Source: an uncultured Clostridia bacterium
Lineage (GTDB): Bacteria; Bacillota; Clostridia; Oscillospirales; Ruminococcaceae
Reading direction: 5' to 3'
Assembly (NCBI GenBank): GCA_947389015.1
Contig: CANDVA010000017.1
Coordinates: 1-59,237, forward strand
Length of the DNA: 59,237 bases
Part shown: piece by piece, positions 38,083-45,490 of the stretch
Layout: every line of letters begins with the position of its first letter
How positions within the stretch are numbered: the first letter of the stretch is position 1
Notes under the pieces: generated by a model
Databases searched by the model: none
What the model was told of the DNA's origin: nothing
What the model saw: only the letters and a program-made list of their open reading frames with translations
Program-made: the position numbers and the translations under genes

Positions 38083-38393
38083 CCGTGACAACATTTGAAA
38101 AGATCTACGAGGTTGTTAGGAGGATTCCCCGCGGCAAGGTCGCGACCTACGGGCAGATAGCGCAGCTCGCGGGGAATTCAAAATGGGCGAGGGCGGTCGG
38201 CTATGCGCTCCATGCCAATCCCGACCCCGACGGAATACCGTGCTACCGCGTGGTGAACCGATTCGGAGGGCTTGCACCCGCGTTCGCGTTCGGCGGGATA
38301 AACGTGCAGGCGGATATGCTGAGGGCGGACGGGATAGAAGTCCGCGCCGACAATACCGTCGACCTTGATGAGTATTTGTGGGACGGGCTTTGA
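38079..38393 (+). CDS. MGMT/ATL-family DNA alkylation repair protein
   Basis: A 104-residue protein with only the C-terminal DNA-binding and active-site domain of O6-alkylguanine-DNA alkyltransferases. The helix IPRGKVATYGQIAQLAG and the motif PCYRVVNRFGG are present. The acceptor Cys is kept, but the usual PCHRV His is Tyr, so it is intermediate between active MGMT and alkyltransferase-like (ATL) proteins, which lose the Cys. GTG 38079 overlaps the previous stop; GTG 38085 is an alternative with better SD spacing. Confidence 0.88.
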   Translation: MTVTTFEKIYEVVRRIPRGKVATYGQIAQLAGNSKWARAVGYALHANPDPDGIPCYRVVNRFGGLAPAFAFGGINVQADMLRADGIEVRADNTVDLDEYLWDGL

Positions 38394-38452
38394 CTGATTC
38401 GGTCGAACAAAGTAAATTTTTCATATTATTAGGTAAAAATTTGCAAAATGTA

Positions 38453-38481
38453 TTGATTTTTTGACGCAAATATGAGATAAT
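38453..38481 (+). promoter_or_regulatory. Promoter of the P-type ATPase-like gene
   Basis: TTGATT and GATAAT with a 17-bp spacer, about 45 bp upstream of the start codon. Confidence 0.7.
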
Positions 38482-38526
38482 AAAAGAGAGTGTACATGCA
38501 TCTAATGTAGAGAAAGAAGTTTTTAT

Positions 38527-40992
38527 ATGGCAAAGTTTTTTAATTTTGACGAGGAGTATTTCGGACTAACCGAAAACGAGATCGAAAAAAAGCTGTCGAT
38601 GTACGGCTTGAATACATATACAGGAGCGCCGCGCGCGTTTACGGGCTTTTCGTATGCCGATATTTTTCTGTCGCCGTCGGTGCTGCTGATGCTTATCGCG
38701 GGAGTGCTGTGCTTTTTCGGCGCGGGCGGCATCGGTATGGGCATAGCCGTGCTGCTTATCGACGCGTTCTATGTGTGTATGGAGATACATTTCCGCAAGA
38801 CCGAGGACGACAGGCTGGATGAGATTGAGGAGACCACCGCCACGAAATTCCGCGTTATCCGTTCGGGTAAGCCCGAGCTTATTGAAAAGGAGCTTATAGT
38901 TCCCGAGGACGTTATAGTCGTGCAGGCGGGGGAAAGAGTTCCCGCGGACGCGTTCATTCTCGAGTCACGCGACCTTACAGTTGACGAGGGGATATTCACG
39001 GACGACAATACTCCCGTGGCAAAATACGTCGGAGCGATGTCCAAAAACGACCTTAAGCCGACGTTCGTATACAGCGGTACTATGATAATTTCGGGTATAG
39101 CGATATGCAAGGTAAGCGCTACGGGCGTGGATACCAAATATTTCCGCAAGTACGGCGAATCCGCCGACCGTCATCCGTATTACACCAACCTCGAAAAGGT
39201 AGTGCGCTCGATAGTTCCGATGTGCAGCGCGATCGCGGTGGTTCTTGCAGCCGTCTCGGCAGTTCTGAAGACCGTATCGGGCGGCGAGGTCATACCGTCC
39301 GTGCTCGGCGGCATAACGCTCGGACTGTGCTTTATCCCTACGGGAATCGGCTCGGTCATCAGAATGTATTACACCAAGGGAGCTATGAGCCTTATAAAGG
39401 GCGGCGCGGTCGTAAAGTCACTGTCCGATATCGAAAAGCTCAACTCTCTGTCCGTGCTCTGCGTGGAAAAGGAGGGGGCGATATCCAAGAACTCACTTGA
39501 GGTAAGGGGAGTATACGCCAAAAGCGAGGAGCTGCTGTACAAGGTTGCGGCGCTTGCCTGTGAGCCTAACACTATCGATCCCGCGGAGCGCGCTCTTATG
39601 GTAAAGGCGACATTCTTTGACGACAAGATCGCGGACGTTTACACCGACAACGTTTTCATAGAGAAAGTAGCCGAGGGTGAGTCGATGAACGGCGCGGTAT
39701 GGAGCGTCGGCGGCGCTAAGATATGCTGTATAAAGGGCATTCCCGAGCAAATACTGCCGATGTGCAGACTGAATGGCGACGATCTTTTTGCCGCGCAGAA
39801 AAAGTACGAGGACTACTACGCCAAAGGGTGCAGCGTAATGGCTGTTGCGTGCGTCGACGCGGATAATGAGGATATGGACGTAACGGCGGGATTTTCGTAT
39901 ACGTTCGTGGGATTTGTGGCGTTCTCCGCTCCGTTGCGCGATTCGGTATCGTCGGCTGTTAAGACATGCCGCCGCTCGGGAGTACGCGTCGTTATGCTGA
40001 CCGAGGAAAACCCGAGCGTCGCCGAGTCGACGGGCAAGATGATCGGGCTGTCCACAAGCTCCGTTATTACGGGCAAGCAGATCGAGGAGTCGGTTGAGTA
40101 CGGCACTCACCTCGATTTTGACGCAGATATCTACGCCAAGCTTACCCCCGAGCAGAAGCTGTACGTTATCGGAAAACTGAAGGAAAACGGCGAGGTGGTC
40201 GCTATGACGGGCACCCGCACGGGCGATGCTGACGCGCTTGAGGCGGCGGACGTGGGAATTACCATTTCGCAGCACTCCGCGGGCAGCGCATACGAGGCTG
40301 CCGACGTGATAATGAACGACGACAACTTCTCAACTATCGCTGATATGATCGCCGCGGCAAGGCAGATACACCGAAACATAAAGCGCGCGGTCTCGCTGAT
40401 GATATCGGGCTATATCGGGCTTATCGTGCTGATAATGATAAATCTTTTCAGCGACGTACAGCTTATGCTCACGCCAGCTATAATCGCGCTCGTTTCCATG
40501 ATATTTCTGCCTATGGCGGCGCTGGGATATGTTGACTGTCGCGCGGATATTCGCTCGGTAATGCCGCCGTCGGAGTTCGTTGCCGAAAGGAAGATAAATT
40601 ACCGCTTTATCGGCGGCGCGGCGCTTTTCGGAGCGCTTTCGGGCGCGGTTGCCATTGCTTCGTATCTGTTTATGTTCAACGGTACCAATTTTAATTCCGC
40701 GAGGAGCTGTGCGCTGATATCCTACGCGTTCTGCTCGGCGGCGTTTGCGGTGCTCCGTCATTCGGACGACGAGCCGTTCAGGGAATTCGGCAGGGCAGGA
40801 ATGCTTGCAAAGGCGTCCGTGGCGGTATTCGCGTTAGCGCCTGTATTTCTTGTGTATGTTCCGTTTGTGAATTCCGCGTTCGGCTTTGAGGAAATCGACA
40901 TTTTCGCGCTATTGATAAGCGTCGCGACGGGAATTCTGCCCGCTGCCGCGTATTATTTCGCAAGACATTTTTTTAAGAACTTTTCCACATAG
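38527..40992 (+). CDS. Degenerate P-type ATPase-like membrane protein, probable pseudoenzyme
   Basis: An 821-residue protein with P2-type ATPase architecture: cation-ATPase N domain (residues 12-30), TM1-2, actuator domain, TM3-4, P and N domains, and about six C-terminal helices. Key catalytic motifs are changed. The phosphorylation motif DKTGT is EKEGA (Glu314), the actuator TGES is TDDN (158-161), the TM4 ion-site PEGL is PTGI, DPPR is APLR, and TGDGVNDAPAL is TGTRTGDADAL (561-571, keeping only the last Asp). The N-domain KGxPE (KGIPE) and P-domain PEQK remain. The frame is open throughout with normal codon use, so it is kept as a protein but probably cannot form the phosphoenzyme. Monocistronic with its own promoter. 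Confidence 0.9.
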   Translation: MAKFFNFDEEYFGLTENEIEKKLSMYGLNTYTGAPRAFTGFSYADIFLSPSVLLMLIAGVLCFFGAGGIGMGIAVLLIDAFYVCMEIHFRKTEDDRLDEIEETTATKFRVIRSGKPELIEKELIVPEDVIVVQAGERVPADAFILESRDLTVDEGIFTDDNTPVAKYVGAMSKNDLKPTFVYSGTMIISGIAICKVSATGVDTKYFRKYGESADRHPYYTNLEKVVRSIVPMCSAIAVVLAAVSAVLKTVSGGEVIPSVLGGITLGLCFIPTGIGSVIRMYYTKGAMSLIKGGAVVKSLSDIEKLNSLSVLCVEKEGAISKNSLEVRGVYAKSEELLYKVAALACEPNTIDPAERALMVKATFFDDKIADVYTDNVFIEKVAEGESMNGAVWSVGGAKICCIKGIPEQILPMCRLNGDDLFAAQKKYEDYYAKGCSVMAVACVDADNEDMDVTAGFSYTFVGFVAFSAPLRDSVSSAVKTCRRSGVRVVMLTEENPSVAESTGKMIGLSTSSVITGKQIEESVEYGTHLDFDADIYAKLTPEQKLYVIGKLKENGEVVAMTGTRTGDADALEAADVGITISQHSAGSAYEAADVIMNDDNFSTIADMIAAARQIHRNIKRAVSLMISGYIGLIVLIMINLFSDVQLMLTPAIIALVSMIFLPMAALGYVDCRADIRSVMPPSEFVAERKINYRFIGGAALFGALSGAVAIASYLFMFNGTNFNSARSCALISYAFCSAAFAVLRHSDDEPFREFGRAGMLAKASVAVFALAPVFLVYVPFVNSAFGFEEIDIFALLISVATGILPAAAYYFARHFFKNFST

Positions 40993-41047
40993 CCCGAAAG
41001 CCGCCTTTAAGCGGCTGTGTGAAAAGACTAGGGTTTAAGGAGCTGTC

Positions 41048-41890
41048 ATGAAAAAATTTATTGAGTATCTTAGATATTTTCTGTGCGGACTGGTTTTCGG
41101 CACGGCAAACGTTATCCCCGGGGTAAGCGGCGGCACTATGCTGGTCGTTTTCGGGGTGTTCGACAGGCTGACCGAGGCTATATCGGGTATTAAAAAGATA
41201 TTCCAAAACTTCTGGTTTCTGTTTACGTTTGCGCTTGGAGCGGGCGGGGGAATAGTGCTTTCGGCGTTTGTTATCTCCTCGCTGTTCGAGAATTTCGGTG
41301 TGCAGACGAACATGTTCTTTATCGGACTGATACTCGGAGGCGTTCCGCTTATATACAAATTCGGCACCGAGGATAAGAAGGTAAAGCCCTCCTGCGCTGT
41401 CCCGTTCGTGATCGCAATGGCGGTCGTTATCGGACTGACGGTGCTGGAAAAGATGGACGTGTTCAAGCTCGCGCCCGACGTTGTGACGGGCTTTGACCTT
41501 GTTATCTCACTTAAGCTTATCGTCTGCGCGGTGATAGCGGCGGTGACAATGATGATCCCGGGCATATCGGGCTCGTTCGTTATGATGCTGCTGGGCGTTT
41601 ACGAAACGATAATCGGAGCTATCAAGGATATGAACTTCTACGTCATTATCCCGTTCGCGATTGGCGCGGTCATAGGAATAATCGGCGGCGCGAAGCTTAT
41701 ATCGATGCTGATAAAGAAGAACAAGCTCATGGTATATTCGGCGCTTATGGGGCTTGTTATCGGCTCGGTCTACGCGATACTTCCGGACGGCTTCGGGTTC
41801 AATCTGCAAACGGGCTACGGTTTCGCGTGCGCGCTGTTCGGCGTAATGGCGGCTACTCTCGTTGAAAAGCTCGGCGGCTCGGAGGAATGA
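41048..41890 (+). CDS. popT: DUF368 polyprenyl-phosphate transporter (PopT type)
   Basis: A 280-residue membrane protein with about eight helices. It matches DUF368: the N-terminal FLCGLVFGTANVIPGVSGGTM and a repeated motif TMMIPGISGSFVMMLLGVYE show the two inverted half-repeats. Members have been shown to return undecaprenyl phosphate across the membrane for wall and capsule synthesis. ATG 41048 follows AAGGAG. The stop is 4 nt before the next gene start, so it is co-transcribed with the MBL gene. Confidence 0.9.
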   Translation: MKKFIEYLRYFLCGLVFGTANVIPGVSGGTMLVVFGVFDRLTEAISGIKKIFQNFWFLFTFALGAGGGIVLSAFVISSLFENFGVQTNMFFIGLILGGVPLIYKFGTEDKKVKPSCAVPFVIAMAVVIGLTVLEKMDVFKLAPDVVTGFDLVISLKLIVCAVIAAVTMMIPGISGSFVMMLLGVYETIIGAIKDMNFYVIIPFAIGAVIGIIGGAKLISMLIKKNKLMVYSALMGLVIGSVYAILPDGFGFNLQTGYGFACALFGVMAATLVEKLGGSEE

Positions 41891-41894
41891 CAAA

Positions 41895-42890
41895 ATGCTT
41901 GAGCGCAAGGTAAGGCGCGATAAGATAATAAGGCGGAAAGAATTCGTTTCCGCGCTGATAAGCATTGCCGCGTCGGCTATTCTCGCGGCAGTGCTTTTTC
42001 TGTATATTAACGACCATTATCTCCATATCCAAGCGGTGCCGTCGACTTATGACGTTATCAGATTTTTCGGCGGCGGCGCGAGACCGTATGCGGAGCTTTC
42101 CGATAACGAAATGGCGGTGAGCTTTATAGACGTGGGGCAGGGCGACTGCGAGCTTATTTCGGTCAACGGCTGTAATATACTGATCGACTGCGGCGACACC
42201 GACAAGATCGACAGCGTTATCGGCTTTCTGAAATACAGCGGCGTTGAGCATCTCAATGCGGTGATAATAACTCATCCTCACGACGATCACTACGGCGGAA
42301 TGTACAAGCTGTTAAGCCGTTTTGAGGTCGGCGAGGTGATAATGCCCCGGCTGGAGGTGAACAGCGTTACATATCAGCGGCTGAGCAAGGTCATAAACGA
42401 CAAAAATATCCGTTTTCGGTACGCCAAAGCGGGCGAACGTCTGACACTCGGCGAGGACATATTTCTTGATATTATCGCGCCGATTTATTTCGATTACGGC
42501 GAGGAAAACAATTTTTCGGCAGTAGCGCGGCTGGTTTACGGTGAAACGTCGTTTCTTTTCACGGGCGACCTTGAACGCGCGGGAGAGCTTGACCTGATAG
42601 ACGCCGGTCTGAACTTGCGGGCGGACGTACTCAAGGTCGGTCATCATGGGAGCGCGGGTTCGAGCAGCGCCGAATTTCTTGAAAAGGTCACGCCGAGAAT
42701 TGCGGTATTCGAGACGGGCGCGATAAATTATTACGGTCACCCGAGGAGCGAGGTGCTTGACAGGCTCGCGGAGGTCGGCTGTGAGGAGGCGTATTCCACC
42801 GCCGCAAACGGAAATATCGTGATAGTAAGCGACGGCAGGGAGCTGCGCGTATTGACCGAAAAGGAAAAGGCATACAGCTTTAATGAATAA
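41895..42890 (+). CDS. ComEC-like membrane-anchored MBL-fold hydrolase
   Basis: A 331-residue protein with an N-terminal helix (about residues 18-40) and an extracytoplasmic metallo-beta-lactamase domain. Metal motifs are HPHDDHYGG, TGDLE and HHGSAGS, and SFIDVGQGDCELI is typical of the ComEC/Rec2 C-terminal domain, here without the DNA channel part. Stand-alone forms are thought to cleave phosphodiesters outside the cell. ATG 41895 has GGAGG upstream. Last gene of the popT-MBL pair, followed by a terminator. Confidence 0.88.
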   Translation: MLERKVRRDKIIRRKEFVSALISIAASAILAAVLFLYINDHYLHIQAVPSTYDVIRFFGGGARPYAELSDNEMAVSFIDVGQGDCELISVNGCNILIDCGDTDKIDSVIGFLKYSGVEHLNAVIITHPHDDHYGGMYKLLSRFEVGEVIMPRLEVNSVTYQRLSKVINDKNIRFRYAKAGERLTLGEDIFLDIIAPIYFDYGEENNFSAVARLVYGETSFLFTGDLERAGELDLIDAGLNLRADVLKVGHHGSAGSSSAEFLEKVTPRIAVFETGAINYYGHPRSEVLDRLAEVGCEEAYSTAANGNIVIVSDGRELRVLTEKEKAYSFNE

Positions 42891-42924
42891 AAAACACAGG
42901 GCGTCCCGCTCTGTGTTTTTTTAT
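42889..42924 (+). terminator. Terminator after the MBL gene
   Basis: ACACAG-G-GCG and CGC-T-CTGTGT form a stem with a TCC loop, flanked by AAAA and TTTTTTT. Confidence 0.85.
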
Positions 42925-42996
42925 GTGAAATTTTTTCTTACACATTTTTTGGAGAATATCAAGCCCGATTTCCGACAATAATACTTGTACAAAAAG

Positions 42997-43121
42997 AACC
43001 TGTACACATAGTCGCTCAACGCTTGTTTTTCGGCAATTTTTCCGAGTACCGCGTCAAAGCTCTTTTCACTCGAAAAAAATATGCTTCGAAATCCAGGCAT
43101 TTCGGATTATGTGTATAGGTT
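42997..43121. repeat. 125-bp MITE-like element upstream of sigG
   Basis: Ends AACCTGTACACATA (42997-43010) and TATGTGTATAGGTT (43108-43121) are 14-bp inverted repeats with one mismatch. The inside has CGCTCAACGCTTG and GCTTCGAAATCCAGGCATTTCGG, nearly identical in order and orientation to the complement of the 24501-24668 element (CGCTCAACGCTCG and GCTTCGAAATCCAAGCATTTCGG). It is thus a shorter, diverged member of the same family with different tips. Its right end lies 7 bp before the sigG SD. It occupies half of the 251-bp gap between the MBL gene and sigG. Confidence 0.8.
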
Positions 43122-43141
43122 CGGAGTCGGAGGTCGGAAAT

Positions 43142-43912
43142 ATGTATTATAACAAGGTCGAGATAAGCGGGGTCAATACATCTAAGCTGAAGGTGCTCAA
43201 GGAAGCGGAGAAAATGGAGCTGTTAAAGCGCGTGAAGCAGGGTGATATGCAGGCTCGCGAGGAGCTTATCCGCGGCAATCTGCGCCTTGTGCTCAGCGTT
43301 ATACAGCGCTTTATGGGCAGGGGAGAGAGCGCGGACGATCTGTTTCAGGTGGGCTGTATAGGGCTTATCAAGGCGATAGATAACTTCGACATTACTCAGC
43401 CCGTGCGGTTCTCGACGTATGCCGTGCCGATGATAATGGGCGAGCTGCGCCGATATCTTCGCGACAACGCCCCCGTGCGCGTGAGCCGTTCCGTTCGCGA
43501 TCTGGCGTATAAGGCAATGCAGGCAAAGGAGAAGCTGACCGCGGAAAAGGGCTGCGAGCCGCGTGTTGAGGATATCGCCAAGGAGATAGGCGTGCCGAGG
43601 CAGGACGTTGTTATCGCGCTCGAGGCGATAAGCGCGCCGATCTCGCTGTACGAGCCCGTGTTCTCCGAGTCGGGCGACACGATCTACGTACTGGATCAGC
43701 TCGGCGACCACAACGACGATATGAACTGGCTTAACGAGATTTCACTCAAGGAAGCCATAGCACAGCTCGGCAAACGAGAAAAAAGGATACTCAATCTGCG
43801 CTTTTTCCGCGGAAAAACACAGGTCGAGGTCGCCAAGGAAATCGGCATAAGCCAAGCGCAGGTATCCCGATTGGAAAAGGGCGCGCTCAACAAGATCAAG
43901 AACCGTATTTAA
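43142..43912 (+). CDS. sigG: RNA polymerase sporulation sigma factor SigG
   Basis: A 256-residue sigma-70 family protein specific for late forespore genes. The N-terminal [16 protein letters not shown] is the SigG hallmark (anti-sigma contact), region 2 is [38 protein letters not shown] with [19 protein letters not shown], and region 4 is [29 protein letters not shown] 43142 is set by GGAGGT 7 nt upstream. It converges on sigE, the stop codons overlapping by 3 nt, whereas spoIIGA-sigE-sigG are usually in tandem. The upstream sequence is a MITE-like repeat, and I see no clear SigF/SigG promoter in it. Confidence 0.96.
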
Positions 43913-44628
43913 TTGCAGACTTTTTCCAATTCCTCGCGAAGCTGCTTGATTATACGTTTTTCAAGCCGCGAGATATAGCTTTGCGAAATGCCGATCTCGT
44001 CCGCGACCTCCTTCTGCGTTTTCTCCTTACAGCCATTCAGCCCGAAGCGCATTTCCATTATCTTCTTTTCACGCGCGCCGAGATGGTTCACCGCGTCGTG
44101 GAGGAGCTGCTTTTCGACCTCCTCCTCGATATGGGAGTTTACGCAGTCGCTGTCCGTGCCGAGGACGTCCGAAAGCAGCAGCTCGTTTCCGTCCCAATCG
44201 ACGTTCAGCGGTTCGTCTATGGAGATATCGTAACGGTATTGCGAGTACTTGCGCAGATACATCAGGATCTCATTCTCAATGCACCGCGAAGCATATGTGG
44301 CGAGCTTGATATTCTTCCCAACGCTGAACGTATTTACCGCCTTGATAAGCCCGACAGTACCTATCGAGATCAGGTCCTCAAGCCATATCCCCGTGTTCTC
44401 GAACTTCTTGGCAATATACACTACAAGCCGCAGATTGTGAACTATCAGCATATCGCGGGCTTTGTCGAAATCGGTCTCCATAAGCTTGAACGCGGCTTCC
44501 TCCTCGTCCTTGGTGAGCGGCGCGGGGAGCTGCTCCGAGCCGTTTATGTAGTGAATGTAATTTTCGGCTTTCTTGGCGAATAATTTGTCGAGCCGCAGCA
44601 GAATTTGCCGTAAAAATTTCTTTAGCAT
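43909..44628 (-). CDS. sigE: RNA polymerase sporulation sigma factor SigE precursor
   Basis: A 239-residue mother-cell sigma factor made as inactive pro-SigE. The pro-region is the amphipathic start ([20 protein letters not shown]) before [15 protein letters not shown], the area SpoIIGA cuts. Region 2 ([36 protein letters not shown]) and region 4 ([29 protein letters not shown]) are complete. ATG 44628 has GGAGG 7 nt upstream; the ATG at 44634 would be too close to it. It follows spoIIGA by 16 nt. Confidence 0.96.
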
Positions 44629-44644
44629 AGCCATTCCTCCGTAT

Positions 44645-45490
44645 TTAAATCGATATTATTTTCGGGTCAAAAATGCAGTCGATATCATTTCCAAGCGAAT
44701 TTTTCGTTACTCCCACAAGCGCGTCCGCTGCTTTCCCGTCGACCGTTATTCCGTCCGCACCGAATATCGGCAGCAGCGTTTCCGAGGTCACTGTTCTGCA
44801 TGGAATAAGCCGCAGTCCGCAGCTCGCGTAGAGCCCGCCGCTTTCATCCAGAGTGCCGTCGAGGAAATCGCGGGCGTTTTTCGGGGTTATCTCGGCAATT
44901 TTTTCATATTTACATACGATAACGGGCTTTCCGCTGAATATATCGCAGAGTCCGTTTCCCGTGTCACAGAGACCTCTGAGCTGTATTTCCGTGCCGTTCG
45001 CGGATATTTTCACGTTACATATCTTACCGCACCTCAGCCGCCTGTCCGCGAAGTATCGGACCAGTCTCACCGCGAAGTAAGCCGCCGCCGTGAACGCGAT
45101 AATAGCCGTAAGCGGAATGTTGAAGTACGCCACGCCGTTGCCGAATACCATTCCGTAGGGCGCGCAGAACGTCCACAGCGCCGTCATAAGTCCCGCGTAT
45201 ACAAAGCTCACCAGCAGAAAAAACAGCGCGCACACCGCAAAATCAACGGGCTTCTGTCTGCCAAACGCCGCGAACGTGATAAGCGCCCCGATAACTATCT
45301 TTTCCAAGGCGATAACGATAAACGGCAGCTCGGGCAGCAGTATTACAAGCGAGCCCGCCGCGCCGACAGCCGAGGCAAGCAGACACCGTTTCGCTGAAAC
45401 GCTCCTCCGCATAACAAGCGCGCTTGACCTTATCAGAAAGTAATTTATGTACAGGTTAAGTATAACCAAAACGTCAATATAAACAGTCAC
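44645..45490 (-). CDS. spoIIGA: Sporulation sigma-E processing protease SpoIIGA
   Basis: A 281-residue protease: five hydrophobic N-terminal helices (to about residue 145) and a C-terminal aspartyl-protease-like domain with the active-site motif LCDTGNG (Asp176), followed by PVIVCKYE and IPCRTV. It cleaves pro-SigE after a forespore signal. Start is GTG 45490; the nearest SD (GAGGTGAT) is about 12 nt upstream, longer than usual. Co-transcribed with sigE. Confidence 0.94.

Follow-up and report, generated by a model that had tools for sequence, protein, structure and literature searches.

A predicted pseudo-P-type ATPase encoded beside a dedicated DUF368 subfamily in Ruminococcaceae

Results

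The window gene and its altered motifs

The window analyzed here, i.e. the entire 59,237-nucleotide stretch of an uncultured Clostridia bacterium (Ruminococcaceae; contig CANDVA010000017.1), encodes a P-type ATPase-like protein directly followed by a DUF368 gene on the same strand (Table 1). The first of these genes is one uninterrupted, ATG-started frame, as a preliminary description of this DNA had also proposed, and its product is by descent a member of the P-type ATPase superfamily: the standard order of A, N, and P domains and of membrane helices is recognizable by homology, E1-E2_ATPase, Hydrolase, and Cation_ATPase_C exceed their Pfam cut-offs in the expected order, Cation_ATPase_N lies marginally below its own (20.1 vs 20.4 bits), and the general NCBIfam P-type model TIGR01494 passes its cut-off. 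The other 18 NCBIfam models listed, including the transport-specific ones, all fall under their cut-offs, with the top equivalog scoring 225.4 bits where 615.5 are required, and the protein thus belongs to none of the H+, Ca2+, or Mg2+ subfamilies by these models. The best solved relative of the clade is the Listeria Ca2+-ATPase LMCA1 (lmo0841), matched by the clade profile over nearly its full length (E 2.4e-110), and an AlphaFold2 model built from the window protein and three orthologues reached a pLDDT of only 29.9. The promoter that had been ascribed to the gene could not be established, as positions 38300-43000 contain 7 promoter-like sites on both strands compared to 4.5 +/- 1.9 in shuffled sequence.

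Table 1. Locations of the features described in the window and in related loci
Feature	Location	Strand	Basis
Predicted pseudo-P-type ATPase, 821 aa	38527..40992	+	ATG start, single frame; Pfam/NCBIfam match and alignment
TDDN replacing TGES (A domain; residues 158-161)	38998..39009	+	alignment
PTGI replacing PEGL/PEEF (TM4 ion site; residues 271-274)	39337..39348	+	alignment
EKEGA replacing DKTGT (residues 314-318); Glu314 at the phospho-Asp position	39466..39480	+	alignment
APLR replacing DPPR (P domain; residues 468-471)	39928..39939	+	alignment
TEE replacing TGD (P domain; residues 492-494)	40000..40008	+	alignment
GTRTGD replacing GDGVND (residues 562-567); first Asp gone, second retained	40210..40227	+	alignment
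DUF368/PopT-family putative undecaprenyl-phosphate translocase (PF04018)	41048..41890	+	Pfam 143.5 bits, cut-off 26
PF06695 small multi-drug export gene, directly 3' of the pseudo-ATPase at the place of DUF368 in G948	L215:4750-5229		
DUF368 with insert	L117:9491-10585		no Pfam domain above cut-off in insert
DUF368 with insert	L116:9649-10806		no Pfam domain above cut-off in insert
DUF368 with insert	L108:5837-6988		no Pfam domain above cut-off in insert

Alignment bore out the earlier observation that the defining P-type motifs are altered together in this protein and added TEE for TGD as a sixth changed site, which the preliminary description had not included, whereas KGIPE and PEQK are retained as it had stated. 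The four residues expected of a working enzyme, i.e. the phospho-Asp of DKTGT, the Glu of TGES, the first Asp of GDGxND, and the TM4 Glu, are all missing. As judged from the alignment, the protein has lost residues for catalysis, Mg binding, dephosphorylation, and the TM4 ion site and is not expected to complete the phosphorylation cycle any more. With its catalytic residues lost and its gene nevertheless retained and selected, it is a predicted pseudoenzyme. The same genome encodes four further P-type ATPases (L002, L004, L005, and L006) with intact DKTGT and GDGxND-type motifs; one of these (L004) has NGES at the TGES position.

Distribution and phylogeny of the pseudo-ATPase clade

Matches to the gene are found in 41 of the 43 genomes from the window's own genus, including all 27 of the 27 good-quality ones. 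One of the two remaining genomes (G525, 73% complete) has a match to neither the ATPase nor DUF368, and in the other (G540) the DUF368 gene lies 50 bases from a contig end, such that the ATPase could sit off the contig. In a sister genus (g16) belonging to the same GTDB family, 69 of 71 genomes were matched at E 1e-60 and the motifs were read in 50 of these. One of the two unmatched genomes (G974, 72% complete) lacks matches to both genes, and the other (G975) encodes a more degenerate relative beside a DUF368. This locus (L257:1-3349) reads FLAKDTVMF at the phosphorylation site, and its DUF368 belongs to the same clade as those of the other pairs described below. A third genus (g99) contributes a single pseudo-ATPase genome (G099; L013). 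In a sample of the family, the gene was detected in 5/148 genomes and 3/123 genera using the window protein as query at E 1e-60. Among 391 genomes of the class, all 22 loci read in 21 genomes of other families contain DKTGT, a search performed at a threshold of E 1e-130, which more degenerate members could escape just as G975 did at 1e-60. DKTGT is universal only among the loci read outside the pseudo-clade.

In a FastTree phylogeny, 44 pseudo-ATPase sequences are monophyletic with a support of 1.0 and are placed beside 19 active ATPases having PEEFP in TM4; all support values in this tree are of the SH-like kind, and none is recorded for the node uniting the pseudo-clade with the PEEFP group. 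To survey the individual sites, we compared 82 rows from 81 genomes (L199 repeats L053) with 30 active ATPases, using SERCA residue numbers and roles. All 30 active proteins retain each of the five key residues, whereas the clade retains the TM4 Glu and the DPPR Asp in 0/82 rows, the TGES Glu in 1/82, the first GDGxND Asp in 3/82, and the phospho-Asp in 33/82. No row among the 82 combines the phospho-Asp, the TGES Glu, and the first GDGxND Asp. The phospho-Asp position is filled by E (43 rows), D (33), G (4), N (1), or S (1). Other residues persist, including the DKTGT Lys (77/82), the second GDGxND Asp (73/82), and the Lys of the N-domain KG (75/82). The N-domain Phe of active relatives, which functions in ATP binding, is a gap in the own genus, while much of the sister genus has an aromatic residue there. 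Within the TM4 region, Arg279 is nearly invariant in the clade versus a Thr in most active PEEFP ATPases, in several sister-genus rows a Glu follows one position later in TM4 (PAE), and the acidic residues that active relatives have in TM6 were not seen in the clade rows shown in the alignment.

The preliminary description had named the same EKEGA-type motif in several species as an outcome that would support a pseudoenzyme family. This is true of the own genus, where 29/30 rows down to 52% identity have EKEGA and the exception (L083) has EKKGA, but not of the sister genus: EKEGA is a motif of the window's genus only, with other replacements in the sister genus and the Asp sometimes kept. Three sister-genus members (L217, L227, and L228) retain DKTG or DKVG, two of the three retain both GDGxND Asp residues, and L228 has a nearly intact P site (DKTG, TGD, and GDANAD). 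It is plausible from these motifs that all three are intermediates of catalytic loss and might still be phosphorylated.

Retention under purifying selection

Orthologues at 90, 85, and 80% identity occur in three other public assemblies and all contain EKEGA. The outcome that would have spoken for decay in a single strain, i.e. DKTGT in all homologues, is not what we observe, since close homologues share EKEGA. Sequencing error and chance were considered and dismissed, given the same EKEGA in other assemblies and the intact motifs of the other ATPases encoded by the same genome.

Nei-Gojobori estimates of dN/dS were between 0.03 and 0.18 in 17 pairs (14 from the own genus and 3 from the sister genus), several of which have dS values above 1.3 and are close to saturation. 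In three pairs involving the window gene, dN/dS was 0.023-0.035 in the C-terminal half of the P domain compared to 0.09-0.30 in the membrane segments, using domain limits set by hand here and in the conservation survey. Because of these low values in the P domain, the region whose chemistry is lost is among the most constrained of the protein in the own genus. Mean identity of the phospho-site segment is only 0.38 in the sister genus, where the A domain is the best-kept segment (0.53), compared to 0.81 among active PEEFP ATPases and 0.86 within the own genus; membrane segments are the least conserved part of the pseudo-clade in both genera.

It is certainly conceivable that the gene is decaying or is a sequencing artefact, as a loss of motifs by itself would look alike, yet we consider this very improbable in view of its retention in 41/43 genomes, the range of dN/dS values, and the identical motif in other assemblies. 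As judged from these substitution rates, the pseudo-ATPase is kept under purifying selection rather than decaying in one strain. The proposal of a selected pseudo-pump is therefore upheld by the dN/dS values, the retention, and the conserved EKEGA, with inactivity itself being a prediction from sequence.

A dedicated DUF368 neighbor

The DUF368 gene of the window starts 55 nt beyond the pseudo-ATPase gene, and no plus-strand terminator-like sites are listed between the two. DUF368 proteins are described as candidate C55-P translocases in a study in which the requirement for them depends upon pH and, in V. cholerae, also upon Na+ (PMC9876793). A C55-P translocase function is likewise probable for the window DUF368, by extension from other members of the family.

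A DUF368 gene is located 3' on the same strand in 38/38 testable genomes from the own genus (41 have the pseudo-ATPase) and in 60/61 testable genomes from the sister genus (69 have it). The own-genus number is composed of 28/28 testable of 30 surveyed, five others (L105-L108 and L115), and five pairs added by coordinates (G529, G532, G545, G546, and G560). The sister-genus number is composed of 47/48 testable of 50 surveyed plus 13 pairs by coordinates that stand outside the motif reading (G947, G958, G959, G960, G961, G965, G966, G971, G977, G980, G982, G983, and G986); twelve of these 13 matches score far above active ATPases and that of G980 is split across two contigs. The counts leave out genes at or near contig ends, namely those of G538, G542, and G539 in the own genus and of G359, G941, G953, G979, G981, G940, G984, and G987 (219 nt remaining) in the sister genus. 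In G539, where the gene is at or near a contig end, and in G941, DUF368 is unmatched in the genome. The spacer measures -35 to 27 nt in 29 of the first 34 pairs, 51-185 nt in four, and 587 nt in one, and coordinate checks gave approximately 0.4-1.1 kb in seven sister-genus genomes; the adjacency survey (28/28 and 47/48) addresses presence and strand only, as its spacer figures include wrong start calls. Genes upstream of the pair vary between groups, with tig-clpP-clpX found in some own-genus members and other genes elsewhere.

The paired DUF368 proteins are themselves distinct. In a tree of 121 DUF368 sequences, all 36 paired ones form a single clade with a support of 0.986 and 0/85 others fall inside; the 36 include L257 of G975 as well as G540 (L245), which counts as paired solely on account of its DUF368 starting close to a contig end, and exclude L009. 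The pseudo-ATPase is encoded beside a dedicated DUF368 subfamily. Conversely, DUF368 was found 3' of active ATPases at 0/36 loci from the first searches, a set that excludes L056 (identical to L017) and in which the room available was 145 nt at L034 and 625 nt at L030; a weak hit (E 5.7e-4) lies on the 5' side of L066. Similarly, a P-type ATPase lies within approximately 1.5 kb at 0/30 DUF368 loci taken from other genera in this family. DUF368 evidently has no general need of the pseudo-ATPase, since 76/148 family genomes encode the former and 5/148 the latter. The window genome encodes one DUF368 and has no match to DedA/VTT (PF09335), a family present in 13/14 control genomes, so the pair may be the only known C55-P route in this organism. 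Evolutionary distances of the ATPase and DUF368 correlate (r 0.90, 561 species pairs), but the control Tig correlates as strongly (r 0.97 with the ATPase within the own genus). Partial correlations between ATPase and DUF368 range from -0.14 to 0.79 depending on the control gene, values that fit shared descent as well as they fit interaction.

The two halves of the partner DUF368 are separated by an insert of approximately 100 residues in many sister-genus members and in three of the own-genus members read (L107, L108, and L113).

Exceptions to the pairing and other ATPase-DUF368 neighbors

In the third genus (G099; L128), DUF368 is absent beside the pseudo-ATPase and the DUF368 of that genome falls outside the paired clade. 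G948 of the sister genus retains the pseudo-ATPase and has no DUF368 match genome-wide; the place of DUF368 is occupied there by a PF06695 gene (Table 1), a family that we presume to be akin to the DedA flippases.

Active ATPases can also adjoin DUF368. In five sister-genus genomes (L246-L250), an active Ca2+-type P2 ATPase (IPEAL-type) is immediately followed on its 3' side by a second DUF368, which falls in a separate clade with a support of 0.995; these loci were chosen for their adjacency and provide no rate, and five similar ATPases (L251-L255) have no DUF368 alongside. In another family of the phylum (L299), a stretch 50% identical to an active ATPase lies 5' of DUF368. Among 58 DUF368 loci from the class and phylum (some being pieces of one gene), six have a P-type match within approximately 1.5 kb, of which four are of the heavy-metal type and the sixth (L313) is a candidate neighbor only. 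The idea that DUF368 is adjoined exclusively by dead ATPases was rejected on account of L246-L250 and L299. The same loci raise the possibility of repeated pairing, i.e. P2 ATPases may have paired with DUF368 more than once.

Discussion

The fold of the window protein is a familiar one. Active PEEFP P2-like ATPases and LMCA1, a P2A Ca2+-ATPase, share its domain order and align with the clade over their full lengths, and the PEEFP clade groups with LMCA1 in the tree as drawn. Compared to these enzymes, the pseudo-clade is without the TM4 Glu and the DPPR Asp in 82/82 rows, the TGES Glu in 81/82, and the first GDGxND Asp in 79/82. The nearest analogue is human TMEM94 of the endoplasmic reticulum, which has a P-type-like fold, lacks TGES, showed no measured ATPase activity, and holds lipid near M4 (PMC12134183). 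TMEM94 differs in being eukaryotic, is likened to the clade through its published description only, and has a proposed phosphorylation site that is still an Asp (D417; PMC12134183), unlike Glu314 of the window protein. Its status as ERMA is also disputed, as the available text from another group calls it an active Mg2+ pump/ATPase (PMC13322241). The neighboring gene is likewise PF04018 like the DUF368/PopT translocases, yet it differs from these as part of a dedicated clade accompanying a dead P-type ATPase. Our literature search returned no publication containing both 'DUF368' and 'P-type ATPase', and the available portions of the DUF368 study (PMC9876793) and of a review of Und-P (PMC12826051) do not name a P-type-ATPase-like partner. 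As far as the literature was searched (subscription papers being largely outside), neither a described bacterial pseudo-P-type ATPase nor a link of one to DUF368 was recognizable. To the extent of these searches, both the dead clade and its partnership with a putative flippase are new.

On balance, we lean toward a regulatory or scaffolding role for the pseudo-ATPase, as a subunit of the C55-P flippase that its DUF368 partner would represent. Under this scenario, an active P2-like pump would have worked alongside a DUF368 in an ancestor, whereupon a regulatory partnership would have rendered pumping dispensable and allowed the catalytic residues to drift differently in each lineage. In present-day cells, the pseudo-ATPase would be co-produced with DUF368 and bound to it in the membrane, its head serving as a cytoplasmic scaffold or gate that would set the rate or the place at which the cell-wall enzymes are resupplied with recycled undecaprenyl phosphate. 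Of the roles suggested previously, regulation of a lipid transporter thus gains genomic support from the DUF368 pairing, the role itself being inferred, whereas regulation of an ion pump gained none.

Co-regulation alone can account for the adjacency of the two genes, and several alternative roles need to be weighed. The pseudo-ATPase might itself bind or conduct lipid, either C55-P or another anionic lipid, through a passive groove, thus forming a two-part path with DUF368 rather than regulating it. The near-invariant Arg279, at a place where most active PEEFP ATPases have Thr, fits such a path, as does the precedent of TMEM94, a protein lacking TGES and showing no measured ATPase activity, whose M4 holds a lipid resembling phosphatidic acid (PMC12134183). 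However, a conserved substrate path predicts well-kept membrane segments, and the reverse is found, with these being the least conserved and the A domain and others more so; we consider this role unlikely, if still deserving of some weight. Somewhat less likely again is a general scaffold or assembly factor of the envelope, linked to DUF368 through co-regulation only. The presence of the gene without its usual DUF368 in L128 and G948 would be understandable on those terms, yet it is one dedicated DUF368 clade that accompanies the gene in two genera despite their differing upstream gene order.

Neither of the remaining alternatives appears probable. P-type pumps are capable of dimerizing, and the window genome encodes other P-type ATPases with intact motifs, from which one might suppose that the protein regulates or sequesters an ordinary ion pump in the same cell. 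No second member of the ATPase cluster was encountered in the neighborhoods read (heavy-metal types might not cluster), and both the loss of the TM4 ion-site Glu (82/82) and the failure to see acidic TM6 residues among the displayed rows argue against this idea, which is improbable. Marginally more improbable is residual activity, wherein Glu314 or the Asp of other members would still accept a phosphoryl group. The frequently retained DKTGT Lys and second GDGxND Asp, the phospho-Asp kept in 33 rows, and the intermediate appearance of L217, L227, and L228 are all in its favor, but the position varies among E, D, N, G, and S inside a single clade, the three residues of the cycle never coincide in a row, and the N-domain Phe of active relatives is a gap in the own genus.

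The preferred reading, a regulatory or scaffold subunit of the DUF368 flippase, can be extended in one direction that we regard as doubtful and put forward tentatively: P2 ATPases and C55-P flippases would form a recurrent partnership, of which the dead pump half in the window clade would have become an obligatory regulatory subunit controlling the recycling of the cell-wall lipid carrier. In that case, the cation that accompanies C55-P inward may formerly have been expelled by an ion pump. The mechanism of C55-P flipping is called 'currently unknown' in the available text of PMC11474028, and a dedicated protein partner, if true, would provide a handle on the control of C55-P flippases. The clade, if truly inactive, would also constitute a bacterial pseudoenzyme family in a superfamily for which our literature search yielded only the disputed TMEM94, and living species may preserve possible intermediates of its catalytic loss.

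Downstream of the pair, positions 43109-45490 of the window encode two convergent sigma-70-type sigma factors (43109-43912 on the plus strand and 43909-44634 on the minus strand), followed by SpoIIGA on the minus strand. By name, the two sigma factors at 43109-44634 are presumably sigG and sigE.
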